Source of the DNA: Armatimonadota bacterium | GTDB lineage: Bacteria > Armatimonadota > Fimbriimonadia > Fimbriimonadales > GBS-DC | Assembly: GCA_023511915.1 (NCBI GenBank) | Contig: JAIMAN010000016.1 | Span: 1 to 48,181, forward strand | Length of the DNA stretch: 48,181 bases | Reading direction: 5' to 3' | Shown: in pieces, positions 38,416-42,290 of the stretch | Layout: each line of letters begins with the position of its first letter | Numbering within the stretch: position 1 is the first letter of the stretch | The notes under the pieces: model-generated | The model's database searches: none | The model's input: the letters and a program-made list of their open reading frames with translations, nothing else | Told to the model about the DNA's origin: nothing | Position numbers and translations under genes: made by a program

Positions 38416-38433
38416 TGATTCCTGCCTCATTGG

Positions 38434-38655
38434 TTATTCACGCATCAATCGGAACAGGTCGTCCCTCGAAAGACCACACTGGTTGAGAATGTCTCGGAGT
38501 GTACCCCGTGCCAATTCTTCATGAAGCGGTACAACTGTTCGGTACTCGCCTTTGACGAGGCCCACATGACTGCCTTTTTGCCGCACAACCTCGAACCCAG
38601 CCTTTTCCAACAAGCGAACAAGTTCTCTACCAGAGATTACTGGAAGTTTAGGCAT
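38434..38655 (-). CDS. hicA: HicA-type mRNA interferase toxin
   Basis: 73 residues, a normal HicA length. MPKLPVISGRELVRLLEKAG begins the double-stranded-RNA-binding-like fold. The catalytic H30 is in QKGSHVGLVKG, and TLRDILNQCGLSRDDL ends it. HicA cleaves mRNA independent of the ribosome and is held inactive by HicB. It overlaps hicB by 8 bp at its start; antitoxin first is one of the two known orders. Confidence 0.9.
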   Translation of the reverse strand: MPKLPVISGRELVRLLEKAGFEVVRQKGSHVGLVKGEYRTVVPLHEELARGTLRDILNQCGLSRDDLFRLMRE

Positions 38656-38896
38656 TCACTCCGACCTCCAAAGGATACAACAACACCTCTGTGGTACTTT
38701 CAGCGGGTTCCTCCGTCCCGAAGCTCTCAAGATAGAGTTCCACTGCTTCCTGCAGGTTTGCACGCGCCTCGTCCAGCGTGCGCCCTTGCGTGGTGACGCT
38801 CAGCTCGATACAACGGGCAATATACCATTCGCCCTCGCGCGTGATGATTGCCGTGTAGCGCAAGCGTTTTGTGCGCTGGGATCGTGTCTGTCTCAT
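38648..38896 (-). CDS. hicB: HicB-type antitoxin
   Basis: 82 residues from the ATG at 38896. The partial RNase H-like HicB fold is seen in YTAIITREGEWYIARCIELS and TTQGRTLDEARANLQEAVEL. No extra DNA-binding domain is visible, so regulation may be indirect. It neutralises HicA. A GGGTATACT box ends 8 nt before the ATG and no Shine-Dalgarno is present, so the mRNA is probably leaderless. Confidence 0.88.
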   Translation of the reverse strand: MRQTRSQRTKRLRYTAIITREGEWYIARCIELSVTTQGRTLDEARANLQEAVELYLESFGTEEPAESTTEVLLYPLEVGVNA

Positions 38897-38904
38897 CGTC
38901 AGGG

Positions 38905-38910
38905 AGTATA
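38905..38910 (-). promoter_or_regulatory. Predicted -10 box (GGGTATACT) of hicBA
   Basis: Reading leftwards, TATACT ends 8 nt before the hicB ATG. A T-tract of the upstream terminator lies immediately before it. Confidence 0.5.
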
Positions 38911-38917
38911 CCCGCGA

Positions 38918-39077: not shown

Positions 39078-39488
39078 TCAGGGCGCGACAATCCAGTTGA
39101 CGACCTCCAGTTCGGGGATACGGCTGAAATGACGCACATTTCCCGTTGCCACACCAATCCCAAGAATTCGCGCGGTCGCGCCTATCAACACATCGGCGTC
39201 GTCTAAGCGGTTGCCTGCTGCAGTCAAGTTGCCTGCAATCAATGACGCCTCTCGCGCAACTTCTGCAGAGACCTCCCACACACAACACTGCGCGATAAAG
39301 GTTTCCAGAGCCTGTAAGCGTCGAGTCGCTCCAATCTGCACCAACCCACGCCGCAGCTCATAGTAGCTCATCACACTTAACTCCAACTGGGGGTGATATT
39401 GCAAGTATTCCACCACGCGCTGCACAACGCTAACTTGCCCGCGCAGATAGAACGAAATGACATCGGTGTCCAGCAGGTAGCGGTTCAT
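39078..39488 (-). CDS. VapC-type PIN-domain toxin
   Basis: 136 residues. The PIN ribonuclease acidic residues are in YLLDTDVISFY (D7 and D9), YYELRRGL and DDADVLIGATA. VapC toxins cleave tRNA or rRNA. Its ATG at 39488 overlaps the antitoxin stop (ATGA), so the pair is translationally coupled. A strong terminator lies 120 bp downstream. A longer frame starting at 39566 overlaps the antitoxin gene and is not used. Confidence 0.88.
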   Translation of the reverse strand: MNRYLLDTDVISFYLRGQVSVVQRVVEYLQYHPQLELSVMSYYELRRGLVQIGATRRLQALETFIAQCCVWEVSAEVAREASLIAGNLTAAGNRLDDADVLIGATARILGIGVATGNVRHFSRIPELEVVNWIVAP

Positions 39489-39709
39489 GGATTCCCCGAA
39501 ACGCTCACGCCTTCCGAGAGTGCCTGCTGCAACGCTTTCCACTCCGATTCGGGCATATCTGACCATGCACCTGCAAGCATCAGTATCGCAGACACCTGCT
39601 CGTCAGGCTGGGTGGGGATGAGAACAATCACCTCCTGATCCTGCAGGTTGGCAGTCTCATCCGTTAGATGAACCACATTTCCGACAACACGCCCCTTGAC
39701 GGCTCGCAT
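39485..39709 (-). CDS. VapB-type antitoxin
   Basis: 74 residues. The first part, AVKGRVVGNVVHLTDETANL, is a swapped-hairpin-like strand region, and ILMLAGAWSDMPESEWKALQ is the helical toxin-binding part. It is the presumed antitoxin of the PIN toxin that follows. The ATG at 39709 is preferred over the in-frame GTG at 39718, as AGGTGA lies 5 nt upstream. Confidence 0.75.
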   Translation of the reverse strand: MRAVKGRVVGNVVHLTDETANLQDQEVIVLIPTQPDEQVSAILMLAGAWSDMPESEWKALQQALSEGVSVSGNP

Positions 39710-39764
39710 AGCAATCACCTGACTTAGTGTACCTGTTTCCGCATGACGGCGTCAGGTGAACGGG

Positions 39765-40507: not shown

Positions 40508-41053
40508 TTACTCTCTGCGCCCTGATTTGCGTGAGGTGCCATAACTATACTCTTCGAACAGGGAGAGTGTGTGTCCCTTCTGACGCTCTGACTCACTGTG
40601 TAGACTTCCATCCGAGAGAATATGCTTAGTATCCACACCGTGATGCCGTAGCAGGTAAGCAGCAATTAGTTTTGCGCGGTGGCAAGCATTCGGATCTTCT
40701 TCTGAACACATCATAACGATCCTGCTGTGCGGAAGTAAAAGAAGTGCATTCACAGCATCTACAAAGTATTGCTTTTGGCAGACACGCTCATAGATGACTT
40801 TACCCGTTTCTGAATATACATCGGGGTCGTCAGGGAAGCCGCCTAACTGTTGTCCAAGGTAGTAGTAGGCTATATTGTATTCGTTTTCCAAGTTTTTCAA
40901 GTGTTCGTAGTTGAAATGGGGTGCGTGCTTACTAAAGGGGCGGCTCCGCACATCCACAACAGCCTCTATGGAATGCAGTTGCAAGAGACGAATGAACCTC
41001 ATCTCGCTGTGGTTCGAGTGCCCAATGCTGTAGACTTGCGGATATGAACGCAT
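40508..41053 (-). CDS. DUF488 domain protein, first of two
   Basis: 181 residues from the ATG at 41053. The N-terminus QVYSIGHSNHSEM, the block EAVVDVRSRPFSKHAPHFNY, LGQQLGGFPDDP, and the C-terminal MMCSEEDPNACHRAKLIA carry the DUF488 landmarks, including the Cys and CHR that form its likely active or metal site. The role is unproven; the family is suggested to be nucleic-acid or nucleotide active. A GGGTATCTT box sits exactly 6 nt before the ATG. It is AT-richer than its neighbours, and divergent from the second DUF488 gene across 60 bp. A longer frame to 41158 would overlap that gene. Confidence 0.85.
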   Translation of the reverse strand: MRSYPQVYSIGHSNHSEMRFIRLLQLHSIEAVVDVRSRPFSKHAPHFNYEHLKNLENEYNIAYYYLGQQLGGFPDDPDVYSETGKVIYERVCQKQYFVDAVNALLLLPHSRIVMMCSEEDPNACHRAKLIAAYLLRHHGVDTKHILSDGSLHSESERQKGHTLSLFEEYSYGTSRKSGRRE

Positions 41054-41059
41054 GCCCAT

Positions 41060-41065
41060 AAGATA
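41060..41065 (-). promoter_or_regulatory. Predicted -10 box (GGGTATCTT) for leaderless DUF488 mRNA
   Basis: Reading leftwards, TATCTT ends exactly 6 nt before the ATG at 41053 with no Shine-Dalgarno. Confidence 0.4.
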
Positions 41066-41084
41066 CCCAATCGACACAAAAACA

Positions 41085-41093
41085 TGGTATAAT
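41085..41093 (+). promoter_or_regulatory. Extended -10 promoter (TGGTATAAT) of the second DUF488 gene
   Basis: TATAAT at 41088-41093 is preceded by TGG, 20 nt before the ATG at 41114. It lies back to back with the leftward promoter at 41060-41065. Confidence 0.6.
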
Positions 41094-41113
41094 ATGTAGG
41101 CGGAGACACTGTT

Positions 41114-41596
41114 ATGAGGGTCTACACCATAGGTGTATACGGATGGTCTGCTGAACACTTTATCACTCGGCTGAGAGAAGAGGGCGTCGAGATGGTCGTC
41201 GATACCCGTCAGCGTAGAGGCGTGCGTGGGAAAGAGTATCGGTTCGCTAACTCACTGGCGCTGCAGGATCTCTTACGACAGCATGGAATCGCATATAAGT
41301 ATATCAAAGCGCTAGCGCCGCCTGTCTCGATACGCCGAGTTCAAAAGCAGATCGATACGGCGGGACGGGTGCGTAAACGCGACAGAGAGAGCCTATCCAG
41401 CGATTACATTACCCAATATGAGCGGCTTGTTCTCGACCGTTACGATTGGTCAGAGTTAGAAGAAATTCGCAAAAGTGGAATCCAAAGTATTGCGCTACTT
41501 TGTGTGGAACGCAACCATGAAGCATGCCACAGGAGTCTGATAGCGTGCCGTCTACAAAAGATCTACGGAGTGGAGGTGTATCATCTAACACCATGA
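41114..41596 (+). CDS. DUF488 domain protein, second of two
   Basis: 160 residues. VYTIGVYGWSAEHFITRLRE and VEMVVDTRQRRGVRGKEYRF match the N-terminal half of DUF488, and ALLCVERNHEACHRSLIACR the Cys/CHR C-terminal motif. It diverges from the first copy in the middle (the arginine-rich RQRRGVRGK replaces RSRPFSKH), so the two are not a recent duplicate. Codon choice includes several ATA, AGA and TTA codons, unlike nearby genes. It overlaps the next gene by 4 bp (ATGA), indicating a linked function with the dual-OB-like protein. Confidence 0.85.
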   Translation: MRVYTIGVYGWSAEHFITRLREEGVEMVVDTRQRRGVRGKEYRFANSLALQDLLRQHGIAYKYIKALAPPVSIRRVQKQIDTAGRVRKRDRESLSSDYITQYERLVLDRYDWSELEEIRKSGIQSIALLCVERNHEACHRSLIACRLQKIYGVEVYHLTP

Positions 41597-42276
41597 ATAT
41601 GACAGTGTTAATCGTGGCAGTGACACACATGCGCGAAGGGCGTTGCTGTGTGGGGGCTTGGCAACTTCAAGACGCAAGCGGTTCAATTGTCCCTATCCGC
41701 CAGTGGCGGTTGCTGAACGCTGACAGAAGTTTTCCGCTTCTTGCCGAGACAAGTTTTCGCGTAGGGCAAGTGTGGCAGGTGCAACTTGAGCCAGCACCAG
41801 AACATCGCATCAGACCCCCACACACTGAGGACAGCTACTTGCACGCCTCGCAGCGTATCGGACACTTGAAGGAACCCCAAGCAATCCGACTGTACAACGG
41901 CTTACTCCGCAATCCCCAAATCCCTATGGTTTATGGGGATATAACACAACTCTTTGACGGGGCGCTGCGCCAAGACGAGAACAGCCAATCGTTTTACTTT
42001 ACACAAAGCGAGTGCCCCAACTACAGTACCTCTTTCTGGATACCCAGACACCCACTCTTTGTGACCGAAGATAGCTATGGAAAACTGAGAGCGGTTAACA
42101 AATCACTGAACATAAACCTCCGATATACTGCAGTGGAACCCAAAATAGGTTGCGGTGAGACTATCCCTGCGGGATCATTACTGCGTGTGTCACTCGCACG
42201 CTTTTGGAGACGCAACGAGGATGAAGAGCTGCGCTCGTATCTAATGCTATCGCAATTCTACGGAACCATCGAGTGA
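41593..42276 (+). CDS. Dual OB-fold-like protein coupled to DUF488
   Basis: 227 residues from the ATG at 41593, overlapping the DUF488 stop as ATGA. It is beta-rich: TVLIVAVTHMREGRCCVGAW and SIVPIRQWRLLNADRSFPLL in the first half, then FRVGQVWQVQLEPAP, and a second half ending RVSLARFWRRNEDEELRSYL. The layout, start VLIVAVTHM, RPxx and the terminal ARFW, matches what I recall as the dual-OB (DuOB) domain found beside DUF488 genes. OB folds bind nucleic acids, so this may be the recognition part of the module. The assignment is from pattern and context, not a search. Confidence 0.65.
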   Translation: MNMTVLIVAVTHMREGRCCVGAWQLQDASGSIVPIRQWRLLNADRSFPLLAETSFRVGQVWQVQLEPAPEHRIRPPHTEDSYLHASQRIGHLKEPQAIRLYNGLLRNPQIPMVYGDITQLFDGALRQDENSQSFYFTQSECPNYSTSFWIPRHPLFVTEDSYGKLRAVNKSLNINLRYTAVEPKIGCGETIPAGSLLRVSLARFWRRNEDEELRSYLMLSQFYGTIE

Positions 42277-42290
42277 ATGTCTCAATAGGG

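Follow-up and report, generated by a model that had tools for sequence, protein, structure and literature searches.

Within the window (the whole stretch of 48,181 nucleotides analysed here) lies a compact cassette of three genes, called B, C and A in what follows. Two of them encode DUF488 proteins and are divergently arranged, and the third encodes a predicted dual-OB protein.

40508-41053, minus strand: B, a long-type DUF488 protein of 181 residues, PDC-M45B-like (Pfam, PADLOC, homologue alignment)
41054-41113, 60 bp: the intergenic gap from which B and C diverge (sequence and promoter scan)
41114-41596, plus strand: C, a short-type DUF488 protein of 160 residues, in the type-2 clade (Pfam, PADLOC, AlphaFold2, tree)
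41593-42276, plus strand: A, a DuOB (dual OB) protein of 227 residues, the predicted nucleic-acid-binding subunit (Pfam, AlphaFold2, Foldseek and VIA)
40508-42284: the inserted cassette of B, C and A (comparison with same-genus genomes)

The first-pass annotation of this DNA placed the three genes correctly, as it did the 4 bp (ATGA) that C and A share. For B, the alignment of homologues puts the start at the ATG at 41053 and gives no support to a longer reading frame from a GTG at 41158. All three reading frames are intact and the active-site residues are retained. B contains the motifs DVRSRPFSK and MCSEEDPNACHR (active site) and ends in a LFEEYSYGTSRK tail, as its homologues do, while C contains DTRQRRGVRG and CVERNHEACHR. 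The C...CHR motif that had been pointed out in both DUF488 proteins is present in each, and in the form C-x(6-9)-CHR it is retained in 56 of 57 homologues of B and in all 55 of C. Profile searches bear out the families that had been proposed: B and C match Pfam DUF488 (PF04343) at 68.1 bits (E=1.4e-18) and 50.5 bits (E=4e-13), both above the cut-off of 22.2 bits, and A matches DuOB (PF22557) at 39.4 bits, above a cut-off of 27. NCBIfam and PHROGs searches of the three proteins gave no useful family, the nearest being a weak match of C to phrog_2450 (31 bits). A phmmer search of the PDB found no solved relatives of B or C, and an Rfam search across the window returned zero matches.

The composition of the cassette is unlike that of its surroundings. 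Its span of 1,769 bp has a G+C content of 49.7%, compared with 64.1% (sd 2.0%, minimum 59.3%) in segments of the same length taken outside 38.3-42.7 kb. The GC3 of its genes is 51-54%; that of the core genes on either side (RidA, ALDH, PAP2, thioesterase and CrcB) is 78-84%. A drop in G+C had already been seen by eye, and our recount at 41401-41460 gives the same 27 of 60. Comparison with genomes of the same genus locates the insertion closely. B, C and A account almost exactly for the additional DNA that separates the DUF190 stop (40507) from the leader of the thioesterase gene, with the aligned flanks stopping at about 40477 and restarting at about 42312. In four of these genomes the site is empty, crcB-DUF190 joining the thioesterase gene with about 57 bp between the matched blocks. 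In a fifth, which is complete (G010), the same junction is occupied by a gene for a protein of 423 residues with TaqI_C and Eco57I methylase domains. Neither DUF488 nor DuOB was found in any other genome of the genus, the cassette thus being present in 1 of 13. Given the cassette in the window, a methyltransferase-like gene in G010 and an empty site elsewhere, the junction is a small site at which foreign genes, some of them of restriction type, are swapped. The earlier remark that the module replaces nothing obvious is therefore right for the four relatives with an empty site, and wrong for G010, where the site carries another insert. The insertion at a variable site and the alien composition point to horizontal acquisition of the three genes by this genome. 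The first-pass annotation overlooked this single-site insertion within the genus, and likewise the fact that a divergent layout is seen in the window copy alone, as described below.

As had been noted, no transposase flanks the insertion; tRNA genes and direct repeats were likewise sought there and not found. An origin by integrase or transposon was considered, and is unsupported because the direct repeats and tRNA are absent. The gene that occupies the site in G010 (L086, 5546-6814, between DUF190 and thioesterase) is a TaqI/Eco57I-like N6-adenine methyltransferase gene with a host-like G+C of about 65%. Two further low-GC insertions lie in the window on the far side of crcB: at 38426-38916, a HicA toxin gene (68.9 bits in Pfam) and its HicB-like partner, and at 39084-39761, a gene for a PIN-domain (VapC-like) protein that is preceded by a short putative antitoxin gene. 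Both are missing at the matching place in G010. The core genes of this region are interspersed with several small foreign inserts.

The three-gene set recurs widely. Using profiles built from five loci, complete cassettes of A, B and C were found at 45 loci including the window, in several phyla and on plasmids and prophages, often with defence genes as neighbours. Within the window's phylum, DuOB occurs in 33 of 291 genomes, and all three genes are present in 25 of the 30 loci examined. The 44 cassettes outside the window are all co-directional, with the order B-C-A in 33 and A-B-C in 11; B is inverted in the window only. This bears on how the window copy is expressed. The first-pass annotation described a two-way promoter of 60 bp between B and C. 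The gap is as described; the promoter is not borne out. A scan of the gap found no consensus sigma-70-like pair, although there is a perfect TATAAT at 41088-41093 on the plus strand. C and A, which overlap by 4 bp, are probably translated as one unit, and the inverted B needs separate expression from its own side. Since it is inverted in the window alone, the co-expression of B, C and A may have been lost in this copy. It could be argued from the unique orientation of B, and from the gap without a consensus promoter, that in this genome the module is a degenerating passenger, disrupted when B was inverted. We consider this very unlikely, in view of the three intact reading frames with their active-site residues and the retention of the C/A overlap.

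Trees of C and of A each divide into two clades, with 100/100 support in each tree, and every locus that has both genes is assigned to the same clade by either. In clade one are most of the copies from the phylum itself, together with copies from proteobacterial plasmids. Clade two, here called type 2, holds the window, the Rhodothermus plasmid pRMAR01, Bacteroidota, a copy from Acidobacteriaceae, a P2-like prophage and a locus from the window's own phylum (L030). Its members are mostly Bacteroidota, which may be over-represented because the scan that sampled type 2 started from C sequences of that type; for the same reason, the gap between the two types may look cleaner than it really is. The grouping of the window with this Bacteroidota-type clade suggests, on trees whose branches are long, that its lineage gained the cassette from outside its close relatives.

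The cassette is already catalogued as a candidate defence system. Genes from Allochromatium, Agrobacterium and a relative from the same order match PDC-M45A, PDC-M45B and PDC-M45C of PADLOC, so that, by these profile matches, PDC-M45 (M45A being DuOB, and M45B and M45C DUF488) is the gene set found here. The statement in the first-pass annotation, that dual-OB and DUF488 genes are listed together among predicted immunity components, was sound. The PDC entries of PADLOC originate from guilt by embedding and are mostly unvalidated (PMC12988326). In the literature searched, we found no experimental test of PDC-M45 and no paper naming it. The window copy has the same three families in adjacent genes, and B matches PDC-M45B at 147.6 bits (E=8.2e-44). 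However, C reaches 46.0 bits (E=1.1e-12) with PDC-M45C, where type-1 C proteins score 226-242 bits, and it scores slightly higher with PDC-M19A (50.1 bits) than with either PDC-M45C or PDC-M45B (44.0 bits). Both C (22.9 bits) and B (13.1 bits) fall below the cut-off of 27 for Pfam DUF488-N3a (PF22751), which the type-1 and Rhodothermus C proteins do pass. The A proteins of the window and of Rhodothermus, both Pfam DuOB, match no PADLOC model, and the PDC-M45A model (PDLC04656) gave zero matches in the whole genome. Because these tested type-2 A proteins have no match, the window copy is best described as a related variant and not as a strict member of the PADLOC model; it differs also in lying in a separate clade of the A and C trees and in the inversion of B. 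For the same reason, these PADLOC models would undercount the type-2 branch. The cassette itself is already listed, and the window holds a divergent, rearranged copy from a distant branch.

Structures for A and C were predicted with AlphaFold2. The model of A (pLDDT 90.4) resembles dual-OB DNA-binding proteins, in line with the OB identity originally proposed. Its nearest Foldseek matches, at E 2.5e-4 to 8.7e-4 and over the full length, are POT1, HIN-200 and the Oxytricha TEBP, with neighbours that include the complex of POT1 with a 5'-phosphorylated junction (8sh0) and IFI16/MNDA. VIA-align gives SSB, RecO and TEBP at Z 7.1-7.6 (at most 7.6), mostly over residues 1-100. The likeness to POT1 and to the HIN DNA sensors is one of predicted fold only, and it suggests that what A senses is DNA ends. 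The model of C (pLDDT 95.6) is nearest to CbiL/diphthine synthase-like proteins and to PTP-fold phosphatases (SsoPTP, PRL-1, laforin) at Z 7.3-8.3, the PTP-fold matches lying at Z 7.3-7.8, a range that unrelated folds can reach; no Foldseek match to this model has an E value below 0.001. In the model, C130 stands at the end of strand 125-130; enzymes of the rhodanese-phosphatase superfamily carry their cysteine nucleophile where a core strand ends. The predicted fold is consistent with a kinship to rhodaneses and phosphatases and is not a proof of it, as fold alone gives an insecure placement in a superfamily. RapZ is absent from the fold matches, to which we give no evidential weight.

It is worth adding that, in both alignments made, residues C19 and E79 of A are conserved without exception in the two types. 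Such invariance exceeds the need of simple DNA binding, so that A may itself be catalytic or bind a metal.

Fused and variant forms provide clues as to how the proteins act. At one locus (L097), B and C form one polypeptide with two DUF488 domains, which suggests that the two work together. In another type-2 cassette from the window's phylum (L030, 1501-3033), a RecQ-like DEAD helicase is joined to A in one protein, and this points to DNA. On small gammaproteobacterial plasmids (Acinetobacter, Citrobacter), homologues of A and C are adjacent and B is replaced by DUF4326, a relative of DUF488, making a third form of the system, DuOB-DUF488-DUF4326 (L039 5168-5683, L040 5111-5653).

DUF488 enzymes with an active-site cysteine have reportedly been placed in nucleic-acid modification and in biological conflicts. 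For the enzymes of this clade, DNA-end processing was reportedly predicted by Burroughs and Aravind (2023). Taking together the models of A and C, the two fusions and the exchange of B for DUF4326, we favour a complex in which DNA ends or single strands would be held by A, with B and C acting on a phosphate or sugar at the terminus. Our preferred reading, to which we give a probability of about 0.5, is that the window carries a divergent, horizontally acquired type-2 copy of PDC-M45, in which A binds DNA ends and the cysteine enzymes B and C alter them. A would bind single-stranded DNA, DNA ends or junctions of single- and double-stranded DNA, on incoming or replicating phage DNA. B and C would be paired rhodanese/PTP-like enzymes, each with a D-x-R and C-x-E...CHR active site, that attack the terminal phosphate or sugar at the bound ends, for example by removal or transfer of phosphate through the cysteine. 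The phage DNA would then be unfit for replication, joining or packaging. What is proposed here on the cysteine chemistry, on the substrate and on an antiviral outcome is inference throughout, and solo genes of the B or C type, which are present at five loci, count against the proposal, since they imply enzymes able to act without A.

The replacement of B also bears on the substrate, in that it may hint at chemistry on nucleotides or ADP-ribose. For DUF4326, a role in processing the terminal phosphates of ADP-ribose products has been proposed (PMC9503650), and the L039 version carries a fused mSLOG domain. On this evidence the cassette could still serve defence or anti-defence, with enzymes whose substrates are small nucleotides (NAD or ADP-ribose derivatives, or nucleotides with cyclic or terminal phosphates) and with A sensing a ligand or nucleic acid. 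We regard this as unlikely: A resembles binders of DNA ends and single-stranded DNA, it is joined to a RecQ-like helicase in L030, and no SLOG domain was seen fused to any type-2 cassette gene.

The neighbours of the cassette are informative as to its role. They include type III CRISPR genes (csm6, csx16 and cas1) at L003 and cas1-cas2 at L004, while a type I specificity subunit adjoins L045, a PglX/type II methyltransferase-like gene L055, a viperin-like gene L057 and a methyltransferase-like gene L048; a DRT-associated-like protein lies near L042. The PADLOC families represented among the 142 neighbours examined include Pycsar cyclase, CapP, TRIP13, IetA, CARF, Cas1 and type I restriction, a plain list of occurrences and not a measure of enrichment. 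Two P2-like prophages carry cassette genes between gpA and the portal gene, with the order GPA, RelA_SpoT, B-C-A, portal and terminase in L091, and terminase, portal, KAP NTPase, B-A and GPA in L094. Both thus lie in the interval between gpA and gpQ, which in P2-like phages is a hotspot of anti-phage systems (Rousset et al.; PMC9122126). Two further records (L092, L098) are identical in sequence to Bacteroides graminisolvens (L048) and were left out as independent prophage evidence. C or A is also encoded on IMG/VR contigs, and neither was found in INPHARED phage records at the thresholds used.

The cassette is mobile and, from this genomic context, very probably antiviral. Its carriage on plasmids and prophages, the RecQ fusion and the RecO-, SSB- and POT1-like OB folds of A would also suit a module for DNA repair or the protection of DNA ends that is carried by mobile DNA and is not itself antiviral. 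Repair genes, however, are not what recurs around it; the recurrent neighbours are restriction, CRISPR and the P2 defence hotspot, and its distribution is patchy (1 of 13 in the genus), so that a repair module seems to us distinctly improbable. Returning to the preferred reading, in which DNA ends are altered, a stronger form of it can be offered only tentatively, and we would sooner doubt than accept it: type 2 may be an unrecognised anti-phage branch, in which a POT1/HIN-like double-OB protein recognises foreign DNA through its ends and a hetero-pair of DUF488 cysteine enzymes disables that DNA by a new DNA-end chemistry. DUF488 is widespread and its function unsettled. A compact cassette with intact active sites, with B-C and A-RecQ fusions and with two P2-like prophage carriers makes this function testable by phage assay.

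Two other arrangements were seen. In the P2-like prophage of L094 (4950-6170), B and A adjoin the KAP P-loop NTPase gene with no C found alongside, and this is possibly a two-gene form of the cassette. In four loci from one genus of the window's phylum (L016-L019), the DuOB gene continues in frame into dihydrodipicolinate reductase; Pfam identifies DuOB, DapB_N and DapB_C in L016 and L019, with a proline-rich linker between, and L017 and L018 have similar long open reading frames.
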